From Photobacterium sp. DA100 (lineage in GTDB: Bacteria; Pseudomonadota; Gammaproteobacteria; Enterobacterales; Vibrionaceae), in NCBI RefSeq assembly GCF_029223585.1, contig NZ_CP119424.1, positions 2,046,001 to 2,110,000 on the forward strand: a stretch of DNA of 64,000 nt. Reading direction: 5' to 3'. The position numbers and the translations under genes are program-made. Positions 2,359 through 63,803 of this stretch are shown here, in pieces (within the stretch, counting starts at the first letter, position 1; every line of letters begins with the position of its first letter). Under the pieces are notes generated by a model, which did not search any database, had not been told where the DNA came from, and saw only the letters and a list, made by a program, of their open reading frames with translations.

Positions 2359-4359
2359 TTAGCTACCGCGGGCGATATCGTCCAGCGCATTCATCACCTG
2401 CTCGTTGATGTGGCCTTCATACACCAATTTACAAACCTTGCGTCTTACCGCAAGGCCTGAAATCAGCCGCTCAATCGACAAATGTCCCTCATCATGCTGG
2501 CCGTTATACAGCTCGATGGTCTTGCTCAAGGTCTCATACGGCACCACCTCTCCGTTGACCTTCAGCCAGTCAAGCTTCTCCAGCAAGCCGTGGCACTCTT
2601 CACTGATCGAGGCAATAGAATGACCACTCATCGCCGATAACGCCGTTATACTGCGTTGCAGGGCCTCTGAGGAGGTATATTTCGACAATGTAATGGTCAA
2701 TTCATCAGCATTGATCTCAACCAGGTGCTTGCGCAGCTTCACCCGGCGGCCCAGACGCCCCTTGGGACGGGATTCTTTGCGCTGGATCGGTTCGAACTCA
2801 CCATCGATGATCTCGGAAAGCTGATCAAGCTCCTGCTTGGGCAAGATCTCGTTCCGCAGCGGGTTCGGCATGGTCGGGGCCATGGTCCGCTTGCCTTCAT
2901 TGGTGGTTTTCGCCCGTGAGTAACGGATGACCTCATCGACATCGCAACGGATATCAATCTGGTAATCACAATAGCGCTTGCCTTCCTCGTGTGGCGTAAT
3001 GGTCAAATGATAACCCCACAAGTTTACGGCAAACACGTGCTCGGTGATCTTATCCTCCGCCAGCTTGCGCAGCTCGCGGATCAAATCGGTAGAAAAACGG
3101 CGCCACTCGATGTTGCGAGCCAGTTTCTGGTTCAGTTCGCTGAGCATCATCGAGTCATTGAGGCGGCGCGACATCCGGCTACGGAAGAATGAATACAGCT
3201 GGAATACCAAAGTATGCTGGCGCAAGATTTCCGGAGGAAACAGGAAGAAGTAGTCCCGGGTCAACAGCTCGTCAAAGAACGACGGCTCCCACACCAGAAT
3301 ATACAAATTCGGCTTGATCCGGATCTCGCCGTCCTCCCCTTCCTTCGGTGCTTCCTCGGACGCGGTAATGGTACGGGCAAGGAAGCGGAAACGGTCACTC
3401 TTGAACCCTTCCGGCATATTCTCGCTCATCCACCGACCGGTAAGTTCATGCAGCTGGAAGTCAGTAAATTCAATGCGATCAATACTTTCCCGAATCGAAT
3501 CACGGGCCGGACCACTGTCTTTCTTGCCCCTCAGAGCCAAGATATCGGTGATGTAAACGGGTGTCTTGTTGCCCATATTGCGCGACTGGATCTCATAATC
3601 GGCGATATGGTGATCATGGTACTGTACCGTGAGGGTGAACAAAGCAAACAAGGTCATCAGATCGTCGACGGTCATGATCGACTTCGATGATCGTGTCTCG
3701 ATGATCGCCTTGGTCCCGCTGATGGCAACCATCGATTTCTGATAACTCTTCTTCGTCCGCGGCGGAGCCAGCGCCTGGTCGATGATCCCCGCCCAGCTCG
3801 TCGGGGAGATCACAATTTGATCCGCTTCATCAGGCATGGTTGGGGGAGTCCCCAGACCATGCTCACTCAGCAGCTGACGGTTGACATGGTTTTGTGCCAA
3901 GGCTTTGGAGCGCTTTTGCTTTTCTTTGGCTTTTGATTGCTCAGAGTTCAGGCTGCCAGTACCGAGCTGAGAGATCAGCATGGCAGGGTTGATGAAATGA
4001 TGCAGCATGGTTTTGCCCGCCAGACCTTCCTCAAACCTGACGGGTTGTTGTTTGAACAAACCAATATTGACCGCAGCCCGCAGCCGTTGCTGGATCGCAG
4101 CTCGGGTTAATTGGCCTTCAGTGGCCTCAACGAGCTCCGTGGTTGAAACCATGCCATCGTGACTCGATAGGCCACGAAGCGAAATGAGGTTCAATAGTTC
4201 AATGATGCTCTTGGTTACCCCTTTGAAATGCTGGTATTGCGGTAGCCAGTCGATCAAGTTCGCCGGGATCGAGAACAAATGCCCGTCTTTGTGGGATCGT
4301 GGAGCGGGGATCAATATTTTGTCGATGTTCTTATTGTTTGATGTAAGCGCGGAGTTCAT
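2359..4359 (-). CDS. rctB: Chromosome II replication initiator RctB
   Basis: The 666-aa protein is close to the 658 aa of V. cholerae RctB and can be recognised along its length, e.g. HKDGHLF, YQHFKGVTKSI, ALAPPRTKKSYQKSMV, LRGKKDSGPARDSIR, FLFPPEILRQHTLVFQLYS and HLVEINADELTITLSKYTSS. RctB is the Vibrionaceae-specific initiator of the secondary chromosome. It binds iterons and 39-mer repeats through central winged-helix domains and opens the origin. The ATG at 4359 fits the family start, although the first 15 residues differ from Vibrio. The gene is transcribed away from the origin, and its promoter lies inside the AT-rich origin segment, so autorepression through RctB sites is expected from V. 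cholerae. Confidence 0.97.
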   Translation of the reverse strand: MNSALTSNNKNIDKILIPAPRSHKDGHLFSIPANLIDWLPQYQHFKGVTKSIIELLNLISLRGLSSHDGMVSTTELVEATEGQLTRAAIQQRLRAAVNIGLFKQQPVRFEEGLAGKTMLHHFINPAMLISQLGTGSLNSEQSKAKEKQKRSKALAQNHVNRQLLSEHGLGTPPTMPDEADQIVISPTSWAGIIDQALAPPRTKKSYQKSMVAISGTKAIIETRSSKSIMTVDDLMTLFALFTLTVQYHDHHIADYEIQSRNMGNKTPVYITDILALRGKKDSGPARDSIRESIDRIEFTDFQLHELTGRWMSENMPEGFKSDRFRFLARTITASEEAPKEGEDGEIRIKPNLYILVWEPSFFDELLTRDYFFLFPPEILRQHTLVFQLYSFFRSRMSRRLNDSMMLSELNQKLARNIEWRRFSTDLIRELRKLAEDKITEHVFAVNLWGYHLTITPHEEGKRYCDYQIDIRCDVDEVIRYSRAKTTNEGKRTMAPTMPNPLRNEILPKQELDQLSEIIDGEFEPIQRKESRPKGRLGRRVKLRKHLVEINADELTITLSKYTSSEALQRSITALSAMSGHSIASISEECHGLLEKLDWLKVNGEVVPYETLSKTIELYNGQHDEGHLSIERLISGLAVRRKVCKLVYEGHINEQVMNALDDIARGS

Positions 4360-4449
4360 TTGTCATTAGCCGTAGATGCATCATTTTTCCGTGAAAGATT
4401 AATAGAAATAGAACAAGAAAGAAAGCTCTTTTGTTGGCTTTTTTTAAAC

Positions 4450-4527
4450 TGATCTTTTTGTTTATTTTGATCTTATTGATTTACTGATCTTATGATCCGG
4501 TTGGTGATTTTATCGTAAGGCACTGAT
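4450..4527. other. AT-rich unwinding element with repeated TGAT/ATCA tetramers
   Basis: Seven TGAT tetramers (ATCA on the minus strand) start at 4450, 4468, 4477, 4485, 4493, 4505 and 4524 in very AT-rich DNA. In V. cholerae, RctB is reported to bind single-stranded ATCA repeats on one strand of the opened origin. The same array here marks the likely duplex-opening site, between rctB and the iterons. Confidence 0.7.
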
Positions 4528-4561
4528 AAATATAAATATAAAAAACAGCATGTTCGAAAGA

Positions 4562-4683
4562 ATGATCAAAGAGACTTCGGAAAAATGATCAACAGCATCC
4601 TGAAACGATGATCATACACGGTCTGGAAATATGATCATCATCAATCAGCAAGCATGATCAACATGTCCATGAAAGCATGATCA
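4562..4683 (+). repeat. Six RctB iterons (ATGATCA core) at 23-bp period
   Basis: ATGATCA occurs in direct orientation at 4562, 4585, 4608, 4631, 4654 and 4677. Every interval is exactly 23 bp, about two helical turns, so all six sites face the same side of the helix. The cores are the RctB 11/12-mer iterons, and their GATC is a Dam target. Further copies at 4799 and 4938 fall outside the phased array, in the regulatory segment. Confidence 0.93.
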
Positions 4684-4698
4684 TCGCGTCTTCACAGG

Positions 4699-4707
4699 TT
4701 ATCCACA
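4699..4707 (+). promoter_or_regulatory. DnaA box in ori2
   Basis: The sequence TTATCCACA is a perfect strong DnaA box, located 15 bp beyond the last iteron. DnaA is required together with RctB at ori2 in V. cholerae. Confidence 0.85.
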
Positions 4708-5051
4708 GGCCGTTCTGAGCCCGCGGGCGAAAATTTGTACGACCAATGAAAATTGTCACTACTGAAGCTGGCATGAACGGCTTTTTGGGGCCGGAAAAAT
4801 GATCATGGCAGGGCAAACAGACGCTTGTTCTGGTTCCCTTTTCGCATTTCTCCTTCCTTGTGGTGTAATTTTAAACAAAATTGATTTGACACTTTCCGTA
4901 TTCTGCCGGTGTTTTATCATGTGTCCGGAGTGGATGCATGATCAAGACTTTGGCCGTGTATTTCAATTGTGCAATCCAGTATGGATTCACAGCGGGTAAT
5001 GAGGCATTTTTCCATGCATGCTTTGCTGCTTAGCCCTTATCAGGCCTACAC

Positions 5052-5090
5052 TCGCCGTAAATTAGCCGAGGTATTCCATGCTTTCGGCAG
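5052..5090 (+). repeat. 39-mer-type RctB regulatory repeat, copy 1
   Basis: The block begins with GCCGTAAATTAGCC and ends with CTTTCGG, 34 bases from the G of GCCG to the last G. A second block with the same ends and spacing starts near 5421. In V. cholerae, 39-mers of this kind bind RctB and inhibit initiation by handcuffing to iterons. Confidence 0.8.
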
Positions 5091-5419
5091 GATTGGTGCG
5101 AGGATCGATTTACAGCTTCTTTTACTTGATCATTTTTCCGATCTTTTGCTGCCGCCAATGACGATTGTTTGGGCCTTGTTTTTGCCTTGATCATGCTTCG
5201 TGATCTGGCGGATTCATCAGGAACGATGATCAAGCGGGTGTTCACTCTATCAGGCCAAGATCATGATTCATGAGGATTTCAGGTTGATCGTCGAAAGCCC
5301 TGTTTGGCTGTGTCTGCCCGATCATAATGAAATTATTCAATTTCACTATTGTTTTGGAAAATTTACCGCGCCGGCTGTTGTTATTGAGCCGTGAGGATGA
5401 AATTTAGTCAGTGTGGCAC

Positions 5420-5458
5420 CTGCCGTAAATTAGCCAACTATTCTCACGCTTCCGGTGA
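5420..5458 (+). repeat. 39-mer-type RctB regulatory repeat, copy 2
   Basis: It shares GCCGTAAATTAGCC with copy 1 and ends in CTTCCGG at the same internal spacing. It ends about 20 bp before the parS2 site at 5477 and upstream of parA2, so RctB bound here could also affect the par promoter region. Confidence 0.8.
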
Positions 5459-5476
5459 TATAGCCCTAATCGTCAA

Positions 5477-5489
5477 TTTACATTGTAAA
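5477..5489. other. parS2: parS2 centromere site (TTTACATTGTAAA)
   Basis: A perfect match to TTTACANTGTAAA, the published consensus for ParB2-binding sites of Vibrio chromosome II. It lies between ori2 and parA2, where V. cholerae also has a site. Confidence 0.88.
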
Positions 5490-5639
5490 ATGGTGACGCC
5501 GTAACACTTTTGTTTTTTGTCACAAACAGGGGGATTCTGTTAAGTTTGCCAGCAGAAAATATATCGAAAACGTCGGTTTTTTGCTCTCTATTTTGCTTTA
5601 TGCTGAGATAAATATCACACGGTGCTGTTCAGCTTTTTA

Positions 5640-5667
5640 TTGTTTTGGTGTTTTTTTGCTGTACAAT
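5640..5667 (+). promoter_or_regulatory. Putative parA2-parB2 promoter
   Basis: A TTGTTT hexamer at 5640, a 16-bp spacer and TACAAT at 5662 lie about 30 bp before the parA2 ATG. The match is moderate and read by eye. Confidence 0.4.
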
Positions 5668-5698
5668 AAAGCAAAATGTTTCAAGGTGAATAAAGACA

Positions 5699-6913
5699 AT
5701 GAACAGGGAACAAACCATAGACAACTTGCTCAATATTGCCGAGCAGACGAAACAGGTCCAGGCGGACCGAATTGAAATTGTATTGGAAGAGCGTCGTGAG
5801 GAAGCCTTCCCTCCCATGTCGAAAGCTTTGATGGAAAGCCGTTCCGGCCTTACTCGCCGCAAGCTGGACGATGCAATTTCCCGCATGGAAGCGAATGGCC
5901 ACCAATTTACTAAAAATAATGCCAACCACTACTCCATTAGCCTGGAAGAAGCGCACCAATTGATGGAAGCGACAAAAAAGCCCGCTTTCCATGAGCGTGA
6001 AGGTGCTGGACGCAAGCCTTGGATTGTTAATGTCCAGAACCAGAAAGGCGGCACGGGGAAGTCGATGACAGCCGTTCACCTAGCGGCCTGCCTCGCGCTT
6101 GATCTGGACAAGCGCTACCGTATTTGTCTGATTGACCTTGATCCGCAGGGGTCATTGCGTTTGTTCCTTAACCCGCAGATCAGCGTGGGCGATCAGGATA
6201 CGATCTATTCAGCTGTGGATGTGATGCTGGAAAATGTCCCAGAAGGACAGGCGATCGACAAGGAATTCTTGATGGGCAATGTAGTGATGCCTACCCAGTA
6301 CCCTAACCTGAAGACCATCGCTGCGTTCCCTGAAGATGCCATGTTCAATGCCGATGCCTGGCAGGATCTGGCGGAAAACCAGGACTTGAATATCGTTCGC
6401 CTGCTGAAAGAAAAAGTCATCGATCCGATTGCAGATGAGTTCGACATCATCATGATTGACACCGGTCCACACATTGATCCTCTGGTGTGGAATGCCATGT
6501 ATGCGTCCAACGCCTTGATTATTCCTTGTGCGGCGAAGCGTCTTGACTGGGCGTCAACGGTCAACTTTTTCCAGCATTTACCAACAGTTTACGAGATGTT
6601 CCCTGAAGATTGGCACGGTTTGGAGTTTATCCGCCTGATGCCGACAATGTTCGAGGATGATAACAAGAAGCAGGTATCGGTTCTGACCGAAATGAACTAT
6701 CTGCTCCGTGATCAAGTGATGATGGCGACGGTTCCGCGTAGCCGGGCTTTCGAAACTTGCGCCGATACATACAGCACTGTGTTCGACCTTACGGCAGCAG
6801 AATTTGAAGGGGGGAAAAAGACCCTTTCGACAGCACAAGAAGCGATCCAACGTGTTGGCCTCGAGTTAGAGCGTGTGATGCACTCTCACTGGGCCAACCT
6901 GAACCGGGAGTAA
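5699..6913 (+). CDS. parA2: Chromosome II partition ATPase ParA2
   Basis: The 404-aa protein has an N-terminal winged-helix-like region (SRSGLTRRKLDDAISRME, about residues 47-64), as in P1-type ParA proteins. A Walker-type ATPase domain follows, with the deviant P-loop KGGTGKS at 116-122, LIDLDPQG (Walker A') and IIMIDTGP (Walker B). The size and N-terminal extension match V. cholerae ParA2, which forms filaments on DNA and positions the chromosome II origin by acting on ParB2-parS2 complexes. It is followed by parB2 after 7 bp, so the two form one operon. P1-like ParA proteins also repress their own promoter. Confidence 0.95.
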   Translation: MNREQTIDNLLNIAEQTKQVQADRIEIVLEERREEAFPPMSKALMESRSGLTRRKLDDAISRMEANGHQFTKNNANHYSISLEEAHQLMEATKKPAFHEREGAGRKPWIVNVQNQKGGTGKSMTAVHLAACLALDLDKRYRICLIDLDPQGSLRLFLNPQISVGDQDTIYSAVDVMLENVPEGQAIDKEFLMGNVVMPTQYPNLKTIAAFPEDAMFNADAWQDLAENQDLNIVRLLKEKVIDPIADEFDIIMIDTGPHIDPLVWNAMYASNALIIPCAAKRLDWASTVNFFQHLPTVYEMFPEDWHGLEFIRLMPTMFEDDNKKQVSVLTEMNYLLRDQVMMATVPRSRAFETCADTYSTVFDLTAAEFEGGKKTLSTAQEAIQRVGLELERVMHSHWANLNRE

Positions 6914-6920
6914 TTAGGGG

Positions 6921-7895
6921 ATGGCGATTAAAACGAAAGATCTCAATGCCCGTTTGTTCGGCAAGGCAGACAAGCGCCGGGCAACAACGCCAACAGAAGC
7001 ACAGACCGCAGCCCGCGACAAGGCGTCGGTGATCGAACTGGCCGTCGCCGGTGAAGAAACCGTCGCATTTGAACTGGTGAAAATCCAGGCCAATCAGGTT
7101 GCTGATAAAACACGTGTATTTGCGGAAAATGCCCGTGAACAAGCTTTCCTCAACGAGCATGCACTTGCTGATATCCTGACGACACTAAAAGAGCGCGGAC
7201 AGCAATATCCAGCCGTGGGCCGCTGGTTGGATGATGGCAGGATTGAAGTACTGGACGGTAGCCGCCGTCGTATGTCATGTATTCTGGCGGAAAAAGATTT
7301 CCTCATCTACGTGGGGAAGGGGATCAACAGCGATCACGCCAAATTCCTTTCTGACGTTGCGAACGCCCACAAGCCATTGTCGCTATTTGAACGTGGCAAG
7401 GAAATGCAGGCGCTGCTTGAATCCGGCAAAGTAGCCGATCAGAAAGAGCTTGCTAAGTATTGCCAGTGCAGTGAAGCTTTGGTCAGTGGCGCTTTGAAAG
7501 CGGCATCTTTGCCGATGGAGCTGTTGATGGCCTATCCGAGTGTCGGTGAGCTTGGCCGCCCGACGATTGTCAAACTGCACCGTTTGTTCTTTGGTCTTAG
7601 CAACGACCAGCAACAACAGTTTGTCAGTGAGATTTCATCCGCTGACGACGCGATGTGGAAGTCGATCAATGCCTCAGGTATCACTCGTATCACCCGTGAA
7701 GTGACCAGTAAACTTGAGCAGATCGGCGAGACGCTGCAGCCAAAAATTGAGGTTGAAAAACCAAAGCCGCAAGAATTGGTGAAGGGGAAAATCAGCTACC
7801 TGCGCGACGGCGACAAGCTCCAGCTTAAACTGAAGAAGCTCAGTGAGCGCCAGGCCGAAGATATCCTTGCTTACCTAGCCGACTACTTGAAGTAG
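6921..7895 (+). CDS. parB2: Chromosome II centromere-binding protein ParB2
   Basis: The 324-aa protein starts at an ATG preceded by TTAGGGG. It has a ParB/KorB-type fold: an N-terminal nuclease-like segment with WLDDGRIEVLDGSRRRMSCI, then a helix-turn-helix region around VADQKELAKYCQCSEALVSGALKAA, and a C-terminal dimerisation region rich in Lys and Glu. Lineage-specific ParB2 proteins bind parS2, and seven such sites or near-sites occur in this window (5477, 10901, 10970, 13385, 13403, and weaker ones at 20992 and 51135). It is the last gene of the operon and is followed by a strong terminator. Confidence 0.95.
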   Translation: MAIKTKDLNARLFGKADKRRATTPTEAQTAARDKASVIELAVAGEETVAFELVKIQANQVADKTRVFAENAREQAFLNEHALADILTTLKERGQQYPAVGRWLDDGRIEVLDGSRRRMSCILAEKDFLIYVGKGINSDHAKFLSDVANAHKPLSLFERGKEMQALLESGKVADQKELAKYCQCSEALVSGALKAASLPMELLMAYPSVGELGRPTIVKLHRLFFGLSNDQQQQFVSEISSADDAMWKSINASGITRITREVTSKLEQIGETLQPKIEVEKPKPQELVKGKISYLRDGDKLQLKLKKLSERQAEDILAYLADYLK

Positions 7896-54789: not shown

Positions 54790-55413
54790 TTACTGCACCT
54801 TGGCAACCGCATCTTTGACGAGCAGGCCCAGTTCGTCCCACTGCTTGTTGTCAATCAGGTCGCCCGGAACCATCCACGTACCACCACAAGCCAGTACCGA
54901 AGGAAGGGCTAGGTAGTCATCGATGTTGCCTAGGCTCACACCGCCTGTTGGCATGAATTTAACTGGGTAAACCGCAGTCAGTGCTTTTAGCATAGACACA
55001 CCGCCAGAAGGCTCGGCTGGGAAGAACTTGAGGGTACGCAGGCCCATCTCCATGGCTTGTTCAACCAAGCTAGGGTTGTTTACGCCAGGAACGATAGCAA
55101 CGCCTTTTTCCTGGCAGTACTTAACGGTTGTTGGGTTGAAACCTGGGCTTACGATGAAGTCAACGCCAGCGTCAATCGCTTCGTCAACTTGCTCTTTGGT
55201 CAGCACCGTACCAGCGCCGATTAGCATCTCAGGGAATTCTTTGCGCATGTTGCGGATTGCGTCGGCTGCCGCTTCGGTGCGGAAAGTAATTTCAGCACAA
55301 GGCATGCCGTTGTCTACCAGGGCTTTACCTAGTGGGATTGCGTCTTCAGCGTTTTTGATAGCAATGACCGGAATGACTTTCAGTGCAGCTAGTTTGTCGT
55401 TTAGGTTGCTCAT
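54790..55413 (-). CDS. eda: 2-dehydro-3-deoxy-6-phosphogluconate (KDPG) aldolase
   Basis: The 207-aa class I aldolase cleaves KDPG to pyruvate and glyceraldehyde 3-phosphate. Motifs: EITFRTEAAADAIRNMRKEFP (Glu45 region), GAGTVLTKEQVDEAIDAGVDFIVSPGFNP, and the Schiff-base Lys in LKFFPAEPSGGVSMLKAL. The C terminus reads FMPTGGVSLGN. It is the last gene of the operon, 24 bp after kdgK, and finishes uronate breakdown into central metabolism. Codon bias is strong, as in ackA. Confidence 0.95.
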   Translation of the reverse strand: MSNLNDKLAALKVIPVIAIKNAEDAIPLGKALVDNGMPCAEITFRTEAAADAIRNMRKEFPEMLIGAGTVLTKEQVDEAIDAGVDFIVSPGFNPTTVKYCQEKGVAIVPGVNNPSLVEQAMEMGLRTLKFFPAEPSGGVSMLKALTAVYPVKFMPTGGVSLGNIDDYLALPSVLACGGTWMVPGDLIDNKQWDELGLLVKDAVAKVQ

Positions 55414-55437
55414 AATTCTTTACTCTCACTCAGTGTG

Positions 55438-56364
55438 TTAAATCGTTGGCATTGCGTCGGCAGGGATCACAGCCCCACGGTACTGGATAACCGTTGATGC
55501 AACCTGGTGGCCTGCATGAGCGGCTTGGGTTGCCGAGCCGCCGGTGAAACGCTTGGCTAGGTAGCCACCGCTGAACGAGTCGCCTGCAGCGGTGGTGTCG
55601 ACAACCTTGTCGGCCACTAGGGCAGGGACAAATACATTCTGCTCTGCGGTGACAACAAGGCAGGCATCTTTACCGCGCTTGATCGTAATTTCGGTCACGC
55701 CGGCACCCTGGGTACGTTCGATACACTCTTCTAGCGTTTCATCGCCGAACAGCAGCTGCTCGTCGTCGAAAGTCAGTAGTGCGATGTCAGTTAGCGATAG
55801 CATGCGAAGGTAGGCTTCCTGGGCTTCTTTCACACAAGCCCAAAGCTTCGGGCGGTAGTTGTTGTCGAACAACACCTTGCCACCTTTGCCTTTGAAATCT
55901 TCCAAGAAAGTAAATAGCTGCTCGCGGCTTGCTGCCGTCAGGATCGCGAGGCTGATACCACTTAGGTAAATCGCATCAAATGCCATCAGGCTATTTAGCA
56001 GGTCTGTACTTTGCTCTTGTTCAAGCAGGTATTTAGCTGCTGCATCGCTGCGCCAGTAGTGGAAGCTGCGCTCACCCGTGCTGTCGGTTTCGATATAGTA
56101 AAGGCCAGGCAGTTTACCTTCCAGGCGAAGCACCAAGTCAGTACTGATCCCTTCCTTGTTCCAAGCTGCCAACATTTCATCACTGAAGCTGTCGTTACCC
56201 AGAGCTGTTACGTAGGTGGTGTTGATGTCCTTGCCCTTGGTCAGGCGGGACAGGTATACCGCTGTGTTAAGGGTATCGCCACCAAAAGTACGGGTTAGTT
56301 GGTCATTGGCTTGTTGCAGTTCAATCATGCACTCGCCAAGAATGGCAATGTTCATTGTAGCCAT
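55438..56364 (-). CDS. kdgK: 2-keto-3-deoxygluconate kinase
   Basis: The 308-aa protein is a PfkB/ribokinase-type sugar kinase: N-terminal MNIAILGECMIELQQ, FGGDTLNTAVYLSRL (substrate glycines), the LFDNNYRPKLW segment and the C-terminal DTTAAGDSFSGGYLAKRF with the catalytic Asp. It phosphorylates KDG to KDPG. It lies between kdgF and eda in one operon, as in alginate and pectin clusters of Vibrio. ATG 56364 follows CGGAG; MNIAIL at 56355 is an alternative start. Confidence 0.95.
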   Translation of the reverse strand: MATMNIAILGECMIELQQANDQLTRTFGGDTLNTAVYLSRLTKGKDINTTYVTALGNDSFSDEMLAAWNKEGISTDLVLRLEGKLPGLYYIETDSTGERSFHYWRSDAAAKYLLEQEQSTDLLNSLMAFDAIYLSGISLAILTAASREQLFTFLEDFKGKGGKVLFDNNYRPKLWACVKEAQEAYLRMLSLTDIALLTFDDEQLLFGDETLEECIERTQGAGVTEITIKRGKDACLVVTAEQNVFVPALVADKVVDTTAAGDSFSGGYLAKRFTGGSATQAAHAGHQVASTVIQYRGAVIPADAMPTI

Positions 56365-56422
56365 ACATACTCCGAAAAAGGGATGGGGATGAGCGCCGGT
56401 GGCCCTCCCCCCATCAAGGTAA

Positions 56423-56752
56423 TTACTTCAAAAAGTCCTGACGAACGGGTGAGAACATATCTAGCAGGATACTGCCTTCTTCAAGGGCTACTGCACCGTG
56501 AACCGCTAGTTTTTTAGCGATGTACGCATCGCCTTTTTTCAGTACGCGCTTCTCGCCGTCAACTTCCGCTTCGAAGCTACCTTCAACGACGTAACCGATT
56601 TGGTCGTGGATATCGTGGGCATGTGGGTGGCCAATCGCCCCTTTGGCAAAGATCAGGTGTACTGCCATCAGATCTTCAGTGTGACCAACGATTTTACGCT
56701 GGATGCCGTCGCCTAGATCTTCCCACTCAGTGTTGTTGATATCGAAAAACAT
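56423..56752 (-). CDS. kdgF: KdgF-like cupin (unsaturated uronate to DEH conversion)
   Basis: The 109-aa single-domain cupin begins MFFDINNTEWEDLGDGIQRKIVGHTEDLMAVHL and has the metal-binding pattern GAIGHPHAHDIHDQIGYVVEGSFEAEVDGE with three His and a later His. KdgF catalyses linearisation of 4,5-unsaturated uronates from pectin and alginate, producing the DEH/DKI that enters this pathway. The frame continues upstream to 56809, but the ATG at 56752 matches KdgF length and sits behind GGGAGAA. Confidence 0.93.
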   Translation of the reverse strand: MFFDINNTEWEDLGDGIQRKIVGHTEDLMAVHLIFAKGAIGHPHAHDIHDQIGYVVEGSFEAEVDGEKRVLKKGDAYIAKKLAVHGAVALEEGSILLDMFSPVRQDFLK

Positions 56753-56833: not shown

Positions 56834-58600
56834 TTAAGCCGTGCTCGTCTCGGCTGTGGCTTCAGGCTTTTTTCTTGAAGCACTCACCAGCAAAATACCG
56901 ACCGTTAGCACGATAGAGCCACACAAAATAAACAGTCCGCGCCCTGATGGATCATTCGGGATCATAGCCATAGCCAGAATACCAAAGCCAGCTACGCTGA
57001 TTAGGTTACCCAGCATTGAACGCTGCGCTGTATCTAGCGATTGCTGCTCGTCACCACCAGAAACAAGCGGGGTATTCCAGTTTTCAAATAGTTTCTCTAC
57101 TTCTTTCTCACGCTCGACCGTTAGGCCTTTGTAGAAGAATTTAGTCATGATGAACCAGCCACCGGTGAACACAACGTGTGCTGCCAGGCTCAGACCAACC
57201 ACCAGATCACTCCACTCACGCCCTGTTAGCGGTTGCTCGAGGCCAAACAGGCCCTCGATGTGGTGCGCTTTCAGTGCAATACCGAAGATGAAGGAAACCA
57301 CCCCACCCACAACCAGCGTTGACCAACCAGCCCAGTCAGGCGTCTTGCGGATCCACATACCCAGAAGGACAGGGATCAGCATTGGGAAGCCAATCAGGGC
57401 ACCGATGTTCAGTACGATATCGAACAGGCTCAAGTGGCGCAGAGAGTTAATGAATAGACCAATTGAAATGATGATGAAGCCCATCATGATAGTGGTCAGC
57501 TTACTGACAATAATCAGCTCTTTCTGGTTTGCATGAGGTCGGAAGATCGGCTGGTAGAAGTTACAAACGAAGATACCGGCGTTACGGTTCAGACCAGAGT
57601 CCATTGAAGACATGGTTGCGGCAAACATTGCTGACATCAGCAGGCCAACCATACCGGCAGGCATTACATTCTGCACGAAGGCTAGATAAGCGGCATCACC
57701 TGCCTTGTCACCCATTGAGGCGTACTGTGCTGCAAAGTCAGGCATGAATGCACTCACGTACCATGGCGGCAGGAACCAGATAATCGGGCCTACAACCATT
57801 AGGATACAGGCAAGACCTGCGGCTTTACGCGCATTCTCACTGTCTTTTGCTGCAAGGTAGCGGTAAGCATTGATACCGTTGTTCATGACACCAAACTGCT
57901 TAACAAAGATGAATACTACCCAAAGAATGAAAATACTGATGTAGTTTAGGTTGTTACCAATCAGGAAGTTACCCTGGAAGTTGTCAACGATGTTGCCAAT
58001 ACCCCCACCGTGGAAGTACGCTGCAATCGCACAGGTGATAGTTACCGCCATGATGACCAGCATCTGCATGAAGTCAGAGGCAATAACGGCCCATGAGCCA
58101 CCCGTTACCGCCATCAGCATCAGTACGATACCGGTGAAGATAATGGTCGCTTCCATCGGGATGTTGAAAACGGCCGCCACAAAAATTGCCAAGCCATTTA
58201 GCCAAACACCTGCTGAAATCAGGCTGTCAGGCATACTGCCCCAAGTGAAGAATTGCTCTGTGGTTTTGCCAAAACGCATACGGATGGCATCAATCGCTGT
58301 CACTACACGTAGTTGGCGGAATTTTGGTGCGAAATACAGATAGTTGAGGAAATAACCGAAGGCATTTGCCAAGAACAAAATAACGACGGCGAAACCATCT
58401 GTAAATGCTTTCCCTGCTGCACCGGTAAACGTCCATGCTGAAAATTGTGTCATGAAGGCGGTAGCACCTACCATCCACCATAACATTTTACCTCCCCCCC
58501 TGAAGTAATCACTGGTCGAGGTGGTGAACTTCCTGAACATCCACCCGATCGCGATGAGAAATAGGAAATAGGCCAGAACTACGAAAGTATCAATGGTCAT
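56834..58600 (-). CDS. SSS-family symporter, probable oligoalginate/uronate transporter (ToaA-like)
   Basis: The 588-aa protein has about 14 hydrophobic segments with SSS features: DYFRGGGKMLWWMVGATAFMTQFSAWTFTGAAGKA (about 30-64), VTGGSWAVIASDFMQMLVIM, FKQ...GINAYRYLAAKDSENARKAAG and AMFAATMSSMDSGLNRNAGIF. In V. splendidus, related Toa symporters import alginate oligomers for internal lyases. It is the first gene of the operon with kdgF-kdgK-eda and diverges from two PL17 lyases, which fits that role. The substrate range is inferred from context. Confidence 0.88.
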   Translation of the reverse strand: MTIDTFVVLAYFLFLIAIGWMFRKFTTSTSDYFRGGGKMLWWMVGATAFMTQFSAWTFTGAAGKAFTDGFAVVILFLANAFGYFLNYLYFAPKFRQLRVVTAIDAIRMRFGKTTEQFFTWGSMPDSLISAGVWLNGLAIFVAAVFNIPMEATIIFTGIVLMLMAVTGGSWAVIASDFMQMLVIMAVTITCAIAAYFHGGGIGNIVDNFQGNFLIGNNLNYISIFILWVVFIFVKQFGVMNNGINAYRYLAAKDSENARKAAGLACILMVVGPIIWFLPPWYVSAFMPDFAAQYASMGDKAGDAAYLAFVQNVMPAGMVGLLMSAMFAATMSSMDSGLNRNAGIFVCNFYQPIFRPHANQKELIIVSKLTTIMMGFIIISIGLFINSLRHLSLFDIVLNIGALIGFPMLIPVLLGMWIRKTPDWAGWSTLVVGGVVSFIFGIALKAHHIEGLFGLEQPLTGREWSDLVVGLSLAAHVVFTGGWFIMTKFFYKGLTVEREKEVEKLFENWNTPLVSGGDEQQSLDTAQRSMLGNLISVAGFGILAMAMIPNDPSGRGLFILCGSIVLTVGILLVSASRKKPEATAETSTA

Positions 58601-58652: not shown

Positions 58653-58675
58653 TATATTGTAATACAAGGTGGGTG
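58653..58675. promoter_or_regulatory. Operator-like block in the divergent alginate promoter region
   Basis: ATTGTAATACAA followed by GGTGGGTG. The core TTGTAATACAA (58657-58667) is a near-palindrome of a form used by GntR-type regulators. On the minus strand it contains TTGTAT, a possible -35 for the symporter operon. The same block, with two changes in 23 bases, recurs at 63386-63408. The region 58601-58908 holds no other gene and presumably both divergent promoters. Confidence 0.6.
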
Positions 58676-58908
58676 TTTTCGTGACCTCAATCAAGTTTAT
58701 TTTCCGTGCTGCAAAGTGATTTTTGATTTTGTTTGTTTTTTTGTCTTTTGTAATCATGGTCTTATGTTTGTATTTTGATATAGATCAATTCGTGTTTTGA
58801 AATGTGATGGCAGTCGAGTTTTTTCAATGCAGTAATGAAATAAAAATCTATTTGTATTATTTTATGCTCATAAAGAGGTGTGGTATACGCTCTAACTTAG
58901 AGGTTAAT

Positions 58909-61050
58909 ATGAACACAACAATACTGCCCGTGTTACTTTCAAATGAAGAACTTGCTGATTTGCATAAAGAAATCGGTCGCCCTTCATTAATGGGCAAAAC
59001 GATTGCTAAGCTGCAGGCTGAGCTTGAGCAATATATGGCGCTACCAATGGACGTTCCTGGTCACGGTGAGGCTGGTGGCTATGAGCACAACAAGCACAAG
59101 CAAAACTACCAATACATCAACCTTGCTGGGCGTTTGTTCCTGATCACGAAAGATGAGCGTTATGCCGAGTATGCTGGCAAGCTATTGGCAATGTATGCTG
59201 ACAAATACCTCACCTTTGATTTCCATATCCAGCGCAATACCAACCCTCCGGGTCGTTTGTTCCACCAAATTCTCAATGAGCACATGTGGTTGATGTATGC
59301 AAGTTTAGGCTATTCTTGCATCAGTGCGTGGCTTTCTCAGGCGCAGCGTAGCCACATCGTGGAGCGGTTATTCAAGCCGATGCTGGAGATGTTTACCGAA
59401 AAGTACGGCCATGATTTTGACCGCATTCATAACCACGGTATCTGGGCGGTGGCGGCTGTCGGGATCTGCGGTATCGCCATTGGTGAGCGCAAGTATCTTG
59501 AGATGTCGGTGTTCGGCCTCAATGGTGACGGCGAAACTGGTGGCTTCCTGGCTCAGATCTCCAAGCTGTTTGCCCCTTCTGGTTACTACATGGAAGGCCC
59601 GTATTACCACCGCTTTGCGATCCGTCCGCTAGCCGTGTTTGTCGAAGTGCTGCACCGCCACATGCCTGAGTTGGACATCTACAACTACAAAGGCCAGGTG
59701 ATTAAGCAGACTACCCAGGCCCTTTTGGCTACTGCCTACCCGAACGGGCTGTTCCCGGCGTTGAACGATGCGTCAAAGACCATGGCTATCACAGACATGG
59801 GAGTCGTGGTTGCCGTCAGCATGTACTTCAAGCGCTACGGCTTTGATAAGAACTTGCTGGGCATGGCCCAGATCCAAAATCAGGTCTGGATGCACCCGTG
59901 TGGCCAGGCCCTTTCCGAAGCGTGTGATGCCGAGGCGACGATCGAACCGCCGTTCTGGCCGAGCGTGGAGCTGAACGAAGGATCAGACGGTACGTGTGGC
60001 GCACAGGGCTTCCTGCGTATGAAGGCGAAAGACAAAGACATCTGCCAGCTTTCCATGAACTATGGCCAGCACGGTATGGACCATGGCCATTTCGATACCT
60101 TGGGGATCGCTTTCTACAACCGAGGTCAAGAAGTACTTCGTGAATACGGTTTTGCCCGCTGGGTGAATGTTGAGCCGAAATTCGGCGGACGCTACCTGGA
60201 CGAGAATAAGAGCTACGCCCGCCAGACCATCAACCACAACAGTGTGACGGTGGATGAGGGTTGCCAGAACCAGTTCGATATCAAGCGTGCAGACAGTGTG
60301 CACGGCAAGCCGCATTTCTTCATGGGTGAAGGTACCGAGCTGCAGGCGATGAGTGCCTTTGCCGACGAGCATTACCCGGGAATGGGGATGCAGCGCACCG
60401 TGATGATGCTGAAATCCGATATGCTGGAGAGTCCACTGCTGATCGATCTGTACCGCCTAACGAGCGATAAACCGCACCAGTACGACTACTCGCACCAGTA
60501 CCAAGGCCAGATCATCCGTACCGACTTCGAGTACAAGACCAATACCGAGCTCCATCCGCTGGGTGATAACTATGGATACCAGCACCTATGGAGCCTGGCC
60601 CGTGGCGAAGCCGGTAGCAATGCGTTGATCAGCTGGCTGCAGGGTAACAGTTACTACACCTGGCTTGGCACCAGCTCAAGCGCTGACAACGAAGTGATCT
60701 TCACCCAGACCGGTGCCAATGATCCGCAGTTTAACCTGCGTTATGAAAACAGTTTTATCTTACGAACCACGGGCAAAGACTTGCTGTTCGCCTCGGCATT
60801 GGAGACCCATGGTTACTTCAATGAAGCGGTGGAAGCCTCCGTCAATGCCCGTGGCAAGCTTCACCAGATTAAAGTGCTGGCTCACAGCGAGACCGGCTCG
60901 GTAGTTGCCATTGAAGGGGAAGGCATCCGCTTCACAGTGATGGTGAGCAACCAGCCTAATGTGACCGACACGACCGAACATCGAATTATCATCAACGACA
61001 AGACTTATAGCTGGAAAGGATTCCTTGCTGTTGAGCAGGAGACGAAATAA
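58909..61050 (+). CDS. PL17 oligoalginate lyase, copy 1
   Basis: The 713-aa protein has the two-domain PL17 architecture: an alpha/alpha toroid (about 1-340) and a heparinase II/III-like beta-sandwich. Family catalytic features are visible: IHNHGIWAVAAVGICG (Asn-His pair), GYYMEGPYYHRFAIRP (catalytic Tyr), and HGMDHGHFDTLGIAFYNRG (His). It would release unsaturated monomers from alginate oligomers. No signal peptide or lipobox is seen, so it is probably cytoplasmic. The frame is open from 58804, but ATG 58909, behind AGAGGT, gives the family N terminus. It is coupled by a 1-base overlap to copy 2. Confidence 0.93.
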   Translation: MNTTILPVLLSNEELADLHKEIGRPSLMGKTIAKLQAELEQYMALPMDVPGHGEAGGYEHNKHKQNYQYINLAGRLFLITKDERYAEYAGKLLAMYADKYLTFDFHIQRNTNPPGRLFHQILNEHMWLMYASLGYSCISAWLSQAQRSHIVERLFKPMLEMFTEKYGHDFDRIHNHGIWAVAAVGICGIAIGERKYLEMSVFGLNGDGETGGFLAQISKLFAPSGYYMEGPYYHRFAIRPLAVFVEVLHRHMPELDIYNYKGQVIKQTTQALLATAYPNGLFPALNDASKTMAITDMGVVVAVSMYFKRYGFDKNLLGMAQIQNQVWMHPCGQALSEACDAEATIEPPFWPSVELNEGSDGTCGAQGFLRMKAKDKDICQLSMNYGQHGMDHGHFDTLGIAFYNRGQEVLREYGFARWVNVEPKFGGRYLDENKSYARQTINHNSVTVDEGCQNQFDIKRADSVHGKPHFFMGEGTELQAMSAFADEHYPGMGMQRTVMMLKSDMLESPLLIDLYRLTSDKPHQYDYSHQYQGQIIRTDFEYKTNTELHPLGDNYGYQHLWSLARGEAGSNALISWLQGNSYYTWLGTSSSADNEVIFTQTGANDPQFNLRYENSFILRTTGKDLLFASALETHGYFNEAVEASVNARGKLHQIKVLAHSETGSVVAIEGEGIRFTVMVSNQPNVTDTTEHRIIINDKTYSWKGFLAVEQETK

Positions 61051-63200
61051 TGACGTATCAACCATTACTGATGAGCTTCGACGAAGCCGCTATCCTTCGT
61101 GAAGATCTGGGTAAAGATACCCTGATGGGCAATGCACTGGCCCGTGACATTGCAAAACTGGAAGACTACATCGCAACGGTTGGTATCGAAGTACCTGGCC
61201 ACGGCGAAGGGGGCGGCTATGAGCACAACCGTCACAAGCAAAATTACATCCATATGGATATTGCCGGCCGTTTGTACCTGATCACCGAGAACGAAGCGTA
61301 CCGTGATTACATCCGTAACCTGCTGGTGGCCTATGCCGAGGTTTACCCGACGTTGGAGCTGAACGTCAGCCTTGACAGTAATCACCCCGGCCGTATCTTC
61401 CACCAGACGCTGAACGAGAACATGTGGATGCTTTACGCGTCTTGTGCGTATAGCTGTATCCACCACACCTTGCCTGATGACGAGCGCCGCCTGATCGAAA
61501 ACGATCTGTTCCAGATCATGGCGGATATGTTTGTCGACACCTATGCGCACGACTTCGATATCATCCACAACCACGGTCTGTGGGCGGTAGCAGGTGTGGG
61601 TATCTGTGGTTACGCTATCCAGAACCTGGACATCGTGGATAAGGCGCTATACGGTTTGAAAGGCGACAGCGTTAGCGGTGGCTTCCTGGCTCAGCTTTCT
61701 CAGCTTTTCTCGCCAGACGGCTACTACATGGAAGGCCCTTACTACCACCGCTTCTCACTGCGCCCAATTCAATTGTTTGCCGAAGCGATTGAGCGTCGTC
61801 AGCCTGAGGTGGGTATTTTTGCCCATAAAGATGGCGTGATTAAAACAACCAGCTACGCGGTCATGTCAACGGCATTCCCGGACGGTACGCTACCGGCTTT
61901 GAACGACTCGTCTAAGACCATGGACATCAACGATGAAGGCGTTCTGATCAGTACCAGTGCTTGTTTCGGTCGCTACGAAGAAGACGCCAACCTACTGGCG
62001 ATGGCTGCTCACCAGAAAGATGTGTGGGTGCATATATCGGGTAAGAAACTGTCTGACGCGGTAGCGAAAGAAGCGTCTATCCCTGCATTTAACTGGGGTA
62101 GCCTGTTTGTGACTGATGGCCCTGAGGGCGACAAGGGTGGCCTGACTATCCTGCGTCACCGTGACAGTAAAGATGAAGATACCATGGCCTTGCTCTGGTT
62201 CGGCCAGCACGGCTCAGATCACCAGTACCACTCGGCACTGGATCACGGTCACTACGACGGCCTGCACCTGAGCATATTCAACAAGGGCCACGAAACCCTG
62301 CACGACTACGGTTTCGGTCGCTGGGTAAACGTTGAGCCTAAGTTCGGTGGTCGCTACATTCCCGAGAACAAGAGCTACTGCAAGCAAACTATCGCTCACA
62401 ACACGGTAGTTGTTGACCGCAAGACCCAGAACGAATTCAACACGGCATTGGCAGAATCCCGTAACGGTGAATTGCACTTCTTCAAGACTGAAAACGAAGA
62501 CTTCCAGGGCATGAGCGGCATCGTACGCGAATACTACGCCGGTGTAGATATGCAGCGTAGCGTGCTATTGGCGAAAGTTGACGGTATCGAAAACCCATTG
62601 ATCATCGACTTATACCGCTTGAGCACTGAAGACGAGCACGAGTATGACTTCCCAGTACACCACAGGGGCCAGATCATCCGCACCGATTTCGACTACCAGG
62701 CAAACGCCAGCTTGAAGCCAATGGGCGAAAGCGATGGCTACCAGCACATCTGGCAAGTTGCGCAGGGCGAAGTATCAGGCAGCTCGCTGGTTAGCTGGTT
62801 GCATGACAACTGCTACTACAGCATGGTGAGCTCTGCGGGTAATAGTGGTGAAGTGATCTTCGGTCGCCTGGGTGCCAACGATCCCGACTTCAACCTGCGT
62901 TCTGAGCCAATGTTCGTACTGCGCCAGAAAGCGAAATCTCATCTGTTCGCCAACGTGCTGGAAACTCACGGTTACTTTAACGAAGCGGTAGAGGCCTCGG
63001 TTGATGCCCGCGGTAAGGTTGCGCGCATTGAAGTGGTTGGTATGGATGATGTAGCTTCTGTTGTTCGCCTGCATCTTGTTGATGGCCAGGCTCTGACCTA
63101 TGCGGTCTCTAACCAAACTGGCGGTCTGCAAGACGGCAAGCACGAAGTACGCTTCGCTGGCGAGAGCTTCAGCTGGGAAGGCCCTTTCGCACAGCTATAA
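61050..63200 (+). CDS. PL17 oligoalginate lyase, copy 2
   Basis: The 716-aa paralogue is co-linear with copy 1 throughout (LMGNALARDIAKLEDYI, HGEGGGYEHNRHKQNYIHMDIAGRLYLIT, IIHNHGLWAVAGVGICG, GYYMEGPYYHRFSLRP, SALDHGHYDGLHLSIFNKG, VNVEPKFGGRYIPENKSY). It keeps the Asn-His, Tyr and His catalytic set and also lacks a signal peptide. Codon choice is more biased to highly expressed codons than in copy 1, suggesting different expression or age. V. splendidus likewise carries two PL17 genes with different block preferences. Confidence 0.93.
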   Translation: MTYQPLLMSFDEAAILREDLGKDTLMGNALARDIAKLEDYIATVGIEVPGHGEGGGYEHNRHKQNYIHMDIAGRLYLITENEAYRDYIRNLLVAYAEVYPTLELNVSLDSNHPGRIFHQTLNENMWMLYASCAYSCIHHTLPDDERRLIENDLFQIMADMFVDTYAHDFDIIHNHGLWAVAGVGICGYAIQNLDIVDKALYGLKGDSVSGGFLAQLSQLFSPDGYYMEGPYYHRFSLRPIQLFAEAIERRQPEVGIFAHKDGVIKTTSYAVMSTAFPDGTLPALNDSSKTMDINDEGVLISTSACFGRYEEDANLLAMAAHQKDVWVHISGKKLSDAVAKEASIPAFNWGSLFVTDGPEGDKGGLTILRHRDSKDEDTMALLWFGQHGSDHQYHSALDHGHYDGLHLSIFNKGHETLHDYGFGRWVNVEPKFGGRYIPENKSYCKQTIAHNTVVVDRKTQNEFNTALAESRNGELHFFKTENEDFQGMSGIVREYYAGVDMQRSVLLAKVDGIENPLIIDLYRLSTEDEHEYDFPVHHRGQIIRTDFDYQANASLKPMGESDGYQHIWQVAQGEVSGSSLVSWLHDNCYYSMVSSAGNSGEVIFGRLGANDPDFNLRSEPMFVLRQKAKSHLFANVLETHGYFNEAVEASVDARGKVARIEVVGMDDVASVVRLHLVDGQALTYAVSNQTGGLQDGKHEVRFAGESFSWEGPFAQL

Positions 63201-63214
63201 TTTTATGTCATAAC

Positions 63215-63244
63215 AAAAGCCGGGCTCGCGAGTCCGGCTTTTTT
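63215..63244 (+). terminator. Terminator of the PL17 operon
   Basis: AAAAGCCGGGCTC / GAGTCCGGCTTTT type stem (one G-U pair) with a T run, 15 bp after the stop. Confidence 0.88.
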
Positions 63245-63385
63245 ACGTTTAAGACCCTGATGCAGAAATGTATCAGGGTTTTGTATTATTAATAGGGTCA
63301 TGATGGATATGTAAACGAGATCTGTATCACGAAATTGTCAAGTTGTAGCCAATGAATTACGAATTTAGCGCCACGCCGCTTTTGG

Positions 63386-63408
63386 TATATTGTATTACAA
63401 GTTGGGTG
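63386..63408. promoter_or_regulatory. Operator-like block over the -35 of the first sRNA gene
   Basis: ATTGTATTACAA then GTTGGGTG, 21 of 23 bases identical to the block in the alginate promoter region at 58653. The dyad core TTGTATTACAA (63390-63400) covers the -35 hexamer of the sRNA promoter. Confidence 0.65.
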
Positions 63409-63418
63409 ATCTTATAAT
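63390..63418 (+). promoter_or_regulatory. Sigma-70 promoter of sRNA copy 1
   Basis: TTGTAT at 63390, a 17-bp spacer and a perfect TATAAT at 63413; start expected near 63425. Confidence 0.75.
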
Positions 63419-63424
63419 GCAGCC

Positions 63425-63542
63425 ATCAATCGAGATAGCCGTTCCTCAAGTGGCTACCCTGAGACTGACTTATTATAACAATCTACTTCCTAACTTAAGC
63501 TTTGCCTTGTCTAACAGCGCTCTAGGACGGAGCGCTTTTTTT
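63425..63542 (+). ncRNA. Candidate small RNA, tandem copy 1
   Basis: About 118 nt from the predicted start to a Rho-independent terminator (GCGCTC / GAGCGC stem, T run to 63542). A 5' hairpin is likely (ATAGCC with GGCTA-C). The middle is unpaired and carries the pyrimidine-rich CTACTTCCTAAC, which could pair with ribosome binding sites. A copy with one internal difference follows 259 bp downstream. There is no open reading frame with a ribosome site. I do not recognise it as a named sRNA. Confidence 0.72.
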
Positions 63543-63648: not shown

Positions 63649-63677
63649 TTGCAATGTCGATTTTCTTCGCTTATAAT
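63649..63677 (+). promoter_or_regulatory. Sigma-70 promoter of sRNA copy 2
   Basis: TTGCAA at 63649, a 17-bp spacer and TATAAT at 63672. The upstream DNA differs from that of copy 1 and lacks the TTGTATTACAA block. Confidence 0.72.
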
Positions 63678-63683
63678 GCAGCC

Positions 63684-63803
63684 ATCAATCGAGATAGCCG
63701 TTCCTCAAATGGCTACCCTGAGACTGACTTATTATAACAATCTACTTCCTAACTTAAGCTTTGCCTTGTCTAACAGCGCTCTAGGACGGAGCGCTATTTT
63801 TTT
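63684..63803 (+). ncRNA. Candidate small RNA, tandem copy 2
   Basis: The stretch from the -10 box to the terminator repeats copy 1 base for base, except for A instead of G in the 5' hairpin (CTCAAATGG against CTCAAGTGG) and an A at the start of the terminator T run. Conservation stops at the -10 on one side and at the T run on the other, so the repeat unit is the transcript itself. Beyond it, 63804-64000 shows no clear gene; a 13-codon frame with a good ribosome site at 63922 is noted separately. Confidence 0.72.

Follow-up and report, generated by a model that had tools for sequence, protein, structure and literature searches.

A candidate alginate operator shared by the symporter/lyase region and one of two small RNA genes in Photobacterium

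The alginate locus and its two small RNA genes

The window analysed here, the whole 64,000-nt stretch of the Photobacterium sp. DA100 genome, carries a group of alginate-use genes followed by two nearly identical copies of a small RNA (sRNA) gene (Table 1). The symporter, which we take to be ToaA-like, is transcribed divergently from two consecutive oligoalginate lyase genes; the start codon of the KdgF-like cupin gene was chosen by us. Upstream of the first lyase gene, the sequence TTGATATAGATCAA (58775-58788) looks like an FNR/CRP-type box. Elsewhere in the window, at 2359-7895, inspection by eye recognised an RctB-like protein with ParA- and ParB-like proteins after it, which suggests a location of the window at the second chromosome's origin.

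Table 1. Features of the alginate locus, the sRNA genes and the related elements discussed in the text
Feature	Position	Strand	Remarks
KDPG aldolase, PfkB-type (KDG) kinase, KdgF-like cupin	54790..56752	-	PF01081, PF00294, PF07883
Sodium:solute symporter	56837..58600	-	PF00474; divergent from lyases
Putative operator, symporter/lyase region	58653..58667	.	dyad TTGTAATACAA at 58657-58667 with TATA flank; divergent SSS symporter / first oligoalginate lyase region
GKTGGGTG tail	58668..58675	.	probably non-functional; varies in relatives at both sites
Oligoalginate lyase 1	58909..61050	+	only NCBIfam match olalg_lyase, 500 bits, below the 1400 cut-off; PF07940, PF05426
Oligoalginate lyase 2	61050..63200	+	olalg_lyase 521 bits, below the 1400 cut-off; followed by terminator 63215-63242
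Second invariant 15-mer TTTTGTATTATTAAT	63279..63293	.	follows hairpin; two-mismatch dyad TTGTATTATTA at 63281
Putative operator, sRNA copy 1 promoter	63386..63400	.	dyad 63390-63400, about -35 to -25; 15/15 columns invariant
sRNA copy 1 promoter	63390..63418	+	TTGTAT (63390-63395), 17 nt, TATAAT (63413-63418)
sRNA copy 1, about 117 nt	63425..63541	+	5' hairpin, open linker of about 45-50 nt, intrinsic terminator 63516-63536 and T run
sRNA copy 2 promoter, operator-free	63649..63677	+	TTGCAA, 17 nt, TATAAT
sRNA copy 2	63684..63801	+	98% identical to copy 1 in this genome; copy 2 also in G025 and G007
FadR-type GntR gene	C2:2112156-2112869		2.2 kb past window end, 2.6 kb from sRNA copy 1
Orphan operator and short transcript in G021	L226 (G021:C23:48000-60500), about 4602 to 4490	minus	TTGTAA-17-TATAAT; predicted transcript from about 4570 to 4490

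For both sRNA copies a 5' hairpin, an open linker and an intrinsic terminator are predicted, the start of copy 1 being placed from its -10 element. Two features expected of an Hfq-type sRNA, a promoter of its own (here with a weak -35) and a rho-independent terminator with a T run, are present. The predicted folding energy of neither copy is unusual when compared with shuffled sequences (z of 0.39 for copy 1 and -1.18 for copy 2). As copy 1 folds no better than its shuffles, the claim that an RNA is encoded here rests on conservation, promoter and terminator. A search against Rfam returned no match in the window, the best E value around the locus being 1.8 on the opposite strand; assignment to a known Rfam family was rejected, since the gathering score was not reached.

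The sRNA family is narrowly distributed. It was detected by blastn in five of 119 genomes, this one included, and a covariance model recovered the same five among 329 genomes of the family. All five belong to the 14 lyase carriers among the 119 genomes, the other 105 having none. Two copies are found in this genome (G000), G025 and G007 (P. lutimaris), and one in G042 (P. rosenbergii) and G045. The operator accompanies copy 1 in all five genomes and copy 2 in none of the three that possess it, bearing out the original prediction that copy 2 lacks the shared block. In 26 of the 80 named loci described below, together with four further stretches, the covariance model retrieved the known sRNA copies only; the sequence of L114 stops too soon after the lyase gene for a copy to be visible.

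A shared block and a widespread dyad

The 23-bp blocks TATATTGTAATACAAGGTGGGTG (58653-58675) and TATATTGTATTACAAGTTGGGTG (63386-63408) are identical at 21 of 23 positions, as the original prediction had stated. Allowing up to three mismatches, these two are the sole matches in the 64,000-nt window, compared with none in 100 shuffles and a chance expectation of about 5e-6 matches per window for one given block. The remaining same-strand pairs of 23-mers with at most two mismatches in the window derive from the two paralogous lyase genes and the two sRNA copies. Scanning the 6.01-Mb genome, the check that had been proposed alongside the prediction, located the 19-bp core TTGTAWTACAAGKTGGGTG at two exact places and at one place with three mismatches, with no third place having fewer than three; the block is not a common repeat. 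Its interpretation as a dispersed repeat was rejected on this two-copy count and the low chance expectation.

The two halves of the block differ in their conservation. At the lyase/symporter site of relatives the dyad is kept and the GKTGGGTG tail varies, and in the alignment of copy 1 promoters the tail (GTTGGGTG) has two of its eight columns invariant across five Photobacterium genomes. Searching the 119 genomes with the block including its tail, at no more than one mismatch, gave 16 matches in 13 genomes against 14 for a reversed control. GKTGGGTG was therefore rejected as part of the operator, and the original view of it as half of a functional block was not supported by comparison. Because the dyad is invariant, the tail is not and the block including the tail is no commoner than its control, the operator probably consists of the dyad, the likeness of the two tails being a matter of chance. 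That the entire 23-bp match is a coincidence or a dispersed repeat would accord with the variable tail and the 16 matches against 14, but is very improbable given that the genome holds two copies only, that the expectation is 5e-6 per block in the window and that relatives have kept the dyad at both sites.

The dyad itself extends well beyond these genomes. Loci surrounding genes for oligoalginate lyase were assembled from Vibrio, Aliivibrio, Photobacterium, Shewanella, Psychromonas and others; the set comprises the best 80 of 98 named loci, cut at 10 kb and totalling 1.62 Mb. The dyad TTGTANTACAA has 120 matches in 65 of these best 80 of 98 loci, whereas 19 palindromes of the same composition average 2.8 matches there, with a maximum of 14; the counts are not independent, because the loci are related. 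Judged by a crude rule for ORFs, most of these dyads in the best 80 of 98 loci (114 of 120) lie within 350 nt of an ORF start, five are orphans and one falls inside an ORF. Two of the five orphans correspond to sRNA copy 1 of P. rosenbergii and P. lutimaris. The GTA-N-TAC of the dyad (120 dyads, best 80 of 98 loci) satisfies the operator consensus NyGTM-N0-1-KACNy, which the available text of PMC4494728 gives for the FadR subfamily of GntR regulators. In seven Vibrio loci (L127, L134, L135, L138, L146, L182 and L190), exact dyads occur in pairs spaced by 129-153 bp, roughly 5 kb ahead of the lyase match.

Among the 14 lyase carriers, an exact dyad precedes the first lyase gene in G007, G021, G025, G042, G045, G051, G056, G080 and G104, and one with a single mismatch does so in G062. 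It was not found at the lyase locus of G082, where the contig ends, nor near the distant lyases of G101 and G114. The exact dyad TTGTANTACAA occurs at ten places in the DA100 genome: TTGTAWTACAA at six, compared with none for its reversed control, and TTGTASTACAA at four, compared with five, the S-centred form thus being no commoner than its control. Five of the ten belong to the symporter/lyase region, sRNA copy 1, a second SSS symporter, an SDR and a DUF4962/heparinase-type lyase; of the others, two are intergenic elsewhere and three are inside genes. Some start codons of the genes behind these dyads were chosen by us. The SDR, so classed by Pfam, looks like a DEH reductase (dehR-like). Comparison supports TTGTANTACAA as a putative alginate-gene operator far beyond this genome. 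The prediction that the same operator is also found at sRNA copy 1 is likewise upheld by comparison (120 dyads across the best 80 of 98 loci, and 15 of 15 invariant columns at copy 1).

The copy 1 promoter and a candidate repressor

The copy 1 promoters of all five sRNA carriers found (G000, G025, G007, G042 and G045, which are close relatives) were aligned. Every one of the 15 columns of TATATTGTATTACAA is invariant in the five genomes, as are all six of the -10 element and 110 of the 117 in the sRNA; invariant columns number 48 of 140 upstream and six of 39 in the bases that follow. No run of 15 invariant columns arose in 20000 column shuffles. The TACAA half of the dyad is located in the promoter spacer, so that its conservation would not be demanded by the -35 alone. 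The dyad does sit at the -35 position, as had been predicted. The -35 it covers, TTGTAT, matches the consensus at three of six positions, and the promoter scan did not list the copy 1 promoter. On account of this weak -35, the second part of the prediction, repression by covering it, is plausible rather than evident, and the promoter may need an activator.

Further elements are found upstream. The second invariant 15-mer, TTTTGTATTATTAAT, lies 107 bp from the operator block in three genomes and 117 bp in two, and could possibly act as an auxiliary operator at a distance of some ten or eleven helical turns, or belong to a terminator. The hairpin before it (63250-63293 with the 15-mer included) varies in sequence between genomes and folds well in three of five, the 15-mer remaining unchanged. 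The sequence CGAGATCTGTATCACG (63316-63331) is presumably CRP-like. All five copy 1 promoters keep its TCACG half unchanged, and the 110 bases 5' of copy 2 do not contain it; it is a guess that this half-site would fit CRP activation near -101.

A GntR-family regulator had been expected at the dyad. The genome has nine FCD-domain matches, and one of these proteins is encoded close to the window, in an island of alginate genes that also encodes a KdgM porin, another symporter and additional lyases. Its PF00392 (63.4 bits) and PF07729 (FCD, 83.8 bits) matches are both above cut-off, and none of the NCBIfam regulators LldR, NanR, GlcC, PdhR, ExuR and UxuR was reached, the best being LldR at 82.2 bits against a cut-off of 311. 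Orthologues at least 68% identical are present in 12 of 119 genomes; these coincide exactly with the 12 that have a lyase of 64% identity or more, and the two genomes whose lyases share 34-35% identity are without one. G028 has a partial match (93 residues, 88%) yet no lyase match, and G051, G062, G080 and G104 carry paralogues 58-62% identical. The relatives were searched with this one GntR protein out of the nine FCD matches. Across the best 80 of 98 loci, cut at 10 kb, dyad and GntR gene track imperfectly, with both present in 51, the dyad only in 14, the GntR gene only in seven and neither in eight. A FadR-type gene of the expected family thus co-occurs with the system in 12 of 119 genomes and probably encodes the repressor proposed to act at the dyad. 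For this gene with its leader (L049:3154-3870, minus strand), the bases just 5' of the start codon, AGTATACTGTAGTCATATAGTCATACATATAGTTAT, are identical in G000, G025 and G045 and lack the dyad; they are possibly an autoregulatory or RNA element.

Proposed regulation, alternatives and significance

The reading that we consider probable is that a FadR-type GntR repressor acting at the dyad jointly controls the symporter and lyase genes and a trans-acting sRNA copy 1, with copy 2 standing outside this control. Comparison shows a conserved operator, an sRNA gene and their co-occurrence with the GntR and lyase genes, and we infer from these the identity and sign of the repressor and its binding. 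Without alginate, the GntR protein would occupy the promoter region between the diverging symporter and lyase genes as well as positions -35 to -25 of copy 1, keeping both off. An alginate breakdown product would then bind the repressor, and the symporter and lyase genes and sRNA copy 1 would come on together. For the subsequent steps we infer the inducer, a part for Hfq and the existence of targets: sRNA copy 1 would be a trans-acting RNA, probably of the Hfq type, whose conserved open linker contains CUACUUCCU, a stretch that could base-pair with ribosome-binding sites; during alginate use the RNA would tune mRNAs, most likely ones encoded elsewhere than in the alginate locus. Copy 2 would supply nearly the same RNA from an operator-free promoter, and so a separately set baseline.

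Target predictions yielded no candidate beyond background. A 13-nt seed with wobble pairing produced 25 matches in the five genomes, eight of which are the sRNA genes themselves, leaving 17 non-self matches compared with 20 for the reversed control. One match is located just 5' of where an ORF starts and is confined to two close genomes (L215 and L206). Folding of full-length sRNA duplexes gave long duplexes without meaning. Short duplexes of sliding pieces, 17 with 20 nt and one with 28 nt, were also computed for 15 gene starts of the alginate locus and reached a best z of -1.67, using 40 mononucleotide shuffles and with five of the 15 start positions a few bases off.

A comparable arrangement is found in G021, which has the alginate locus and in which the sRNA studied here was found neither by blastn nor by covariance model. 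An orphan dyad occurs there between the third symporter gene and the SDR gene, and a transcript of about 75 nt is predicted to follow it in the direction of the lyase genes, with a strong terminator, no ORF longer than 13 codons and a sequence unrelated to the sRNA. Its place corresponds roughly to the sRNA slot of the five genomes, with the same operator. The geometry was sought in 91 stretches, made up of the best 80 of 98 named loci and 11 further ones, by checking each dyad for a -10 matching at least four of six positions at 16-18 nt together with a terminator. Nineteen rows resulted, and the eight with a perfect TATAAT at 17 nt represent the five sRNA genomes (two listed twice) and G021. 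Among 329 family genomes, the 133-nt G021 region has a full match in G021 only; in 30 of the remaining 328 there are pieces of about 20-54 nt, many of which fall on its terminator. The G021 RNA body is not conserved elsewhere, so the case rests on geometry and position in one genome. We tentatively propose that the Photobacterium alginate regulon keeps a slot for an operator-driven sRNA 3' of the lyase operon, in which the RNA itself can be replaced. If so, the selected feature would be an alginate-triggered RNA signal, the sequence and targets of the RNA would be free to change and the duplicated copy would be one released from operator control.

Two alternatives accept a functional dyad at copy 1. 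It may be an activator site, or be bound by another GntR/FCD protein, in which case the sRNA would belong to the alginate regulon under another sign or regulator. The one-in-nine tracing of FCD matches, the weak -35 and the invariant CRP-like half-site upstream are consistent with this. Nevertheless, we regard it as unlikely, since an activator at -35 to -25 would be expected to collide with RNA polymerase, and the neighbouring GntR gene shares the alginate island and has orthologues that track the lyase genes. It is also conceivable that the RNA does not act in trans, the gene being a relic of promoter and terminator, a decoy, or a transcription buffer that separates the lyase operon from the convergent genes. 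Although the target searches without result and the unrelated sequence occupying a similar slot in G021 agree with such a role, we consider it quite improbable: the RNA body, unpaired linker included, is invariant at 110 of 117 positions between diverged flanks, and three genomes have retained a second copy with a different promoter.

The GntR repressor model with a trans-acting sRNA has precedents in its parts. A GntR repressor of alginate genes is already known (AusR of Zobellia), and an sRNA under a uronate-pathway repressor has its precedent in KdgR and rsmB. In Pectobacterium, the repressor KdgR, which governs the uronate-polymer pathway, reportedly also controls the small RNA rsmB (a study listed among the references of PMC5442451). 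KdgR is an IclR-family protein and rsmB a protein-titrating RNA, in contrast to the FadR-type GntR protein and apparently base-pairing RNA proposed here. AusR of Zobellia galactanivorans is described, in the available text of PMC7874173 and PMC8286568, as a GntR-family repressor of alginate catabolism that is released by a metabolite and acts at several promoters, properties proposed here from motif, proximity and co-occurrence. The AusR host is a Flavobacterium, the available text mentions no sRNA for AusR and the likeness is one of description, made without an operator sequence. The sRNAs GibS and DonS of Bacteroides thetaiotaomicron, linked to polysaccharide utilization loci (PULs) in the accessible portions of PMC7366714 and PMC11697453, are likewise small RNAs tied to polysaccharide use; they come from another phylum and are likened by description, not by operator, sequence or regulator. 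Closest in gene content is the alginate locus of Vibrio sp. C42 (PMC13390454), with an SSS symporter, lyases, kdgF, kdgK, eda, dehR and GntR genes, for which the available text reports deletion mutants and the alginate induction of most locus genes. Its main text is without sRNA, EMSA or TTGTA (0 occurrences; PMC13390454). Searches of the openly licensed literature found no description of the sRNA or of its operator.

If the proposed operator is correct, TTGTANTACAA would allow alginate regulons to be mapped in Vibrio, Shewanella, Photobacterium and their relatives. The regulatory model, if true, would link marine polysaccharide breakdown to post-transcriptional control in gammaproteobacteria by means of a simple switch, and the twin copies, differing in the presence of the operator, would offer a natural comparison between regulated and unregulated expression of nearly the same RNA.
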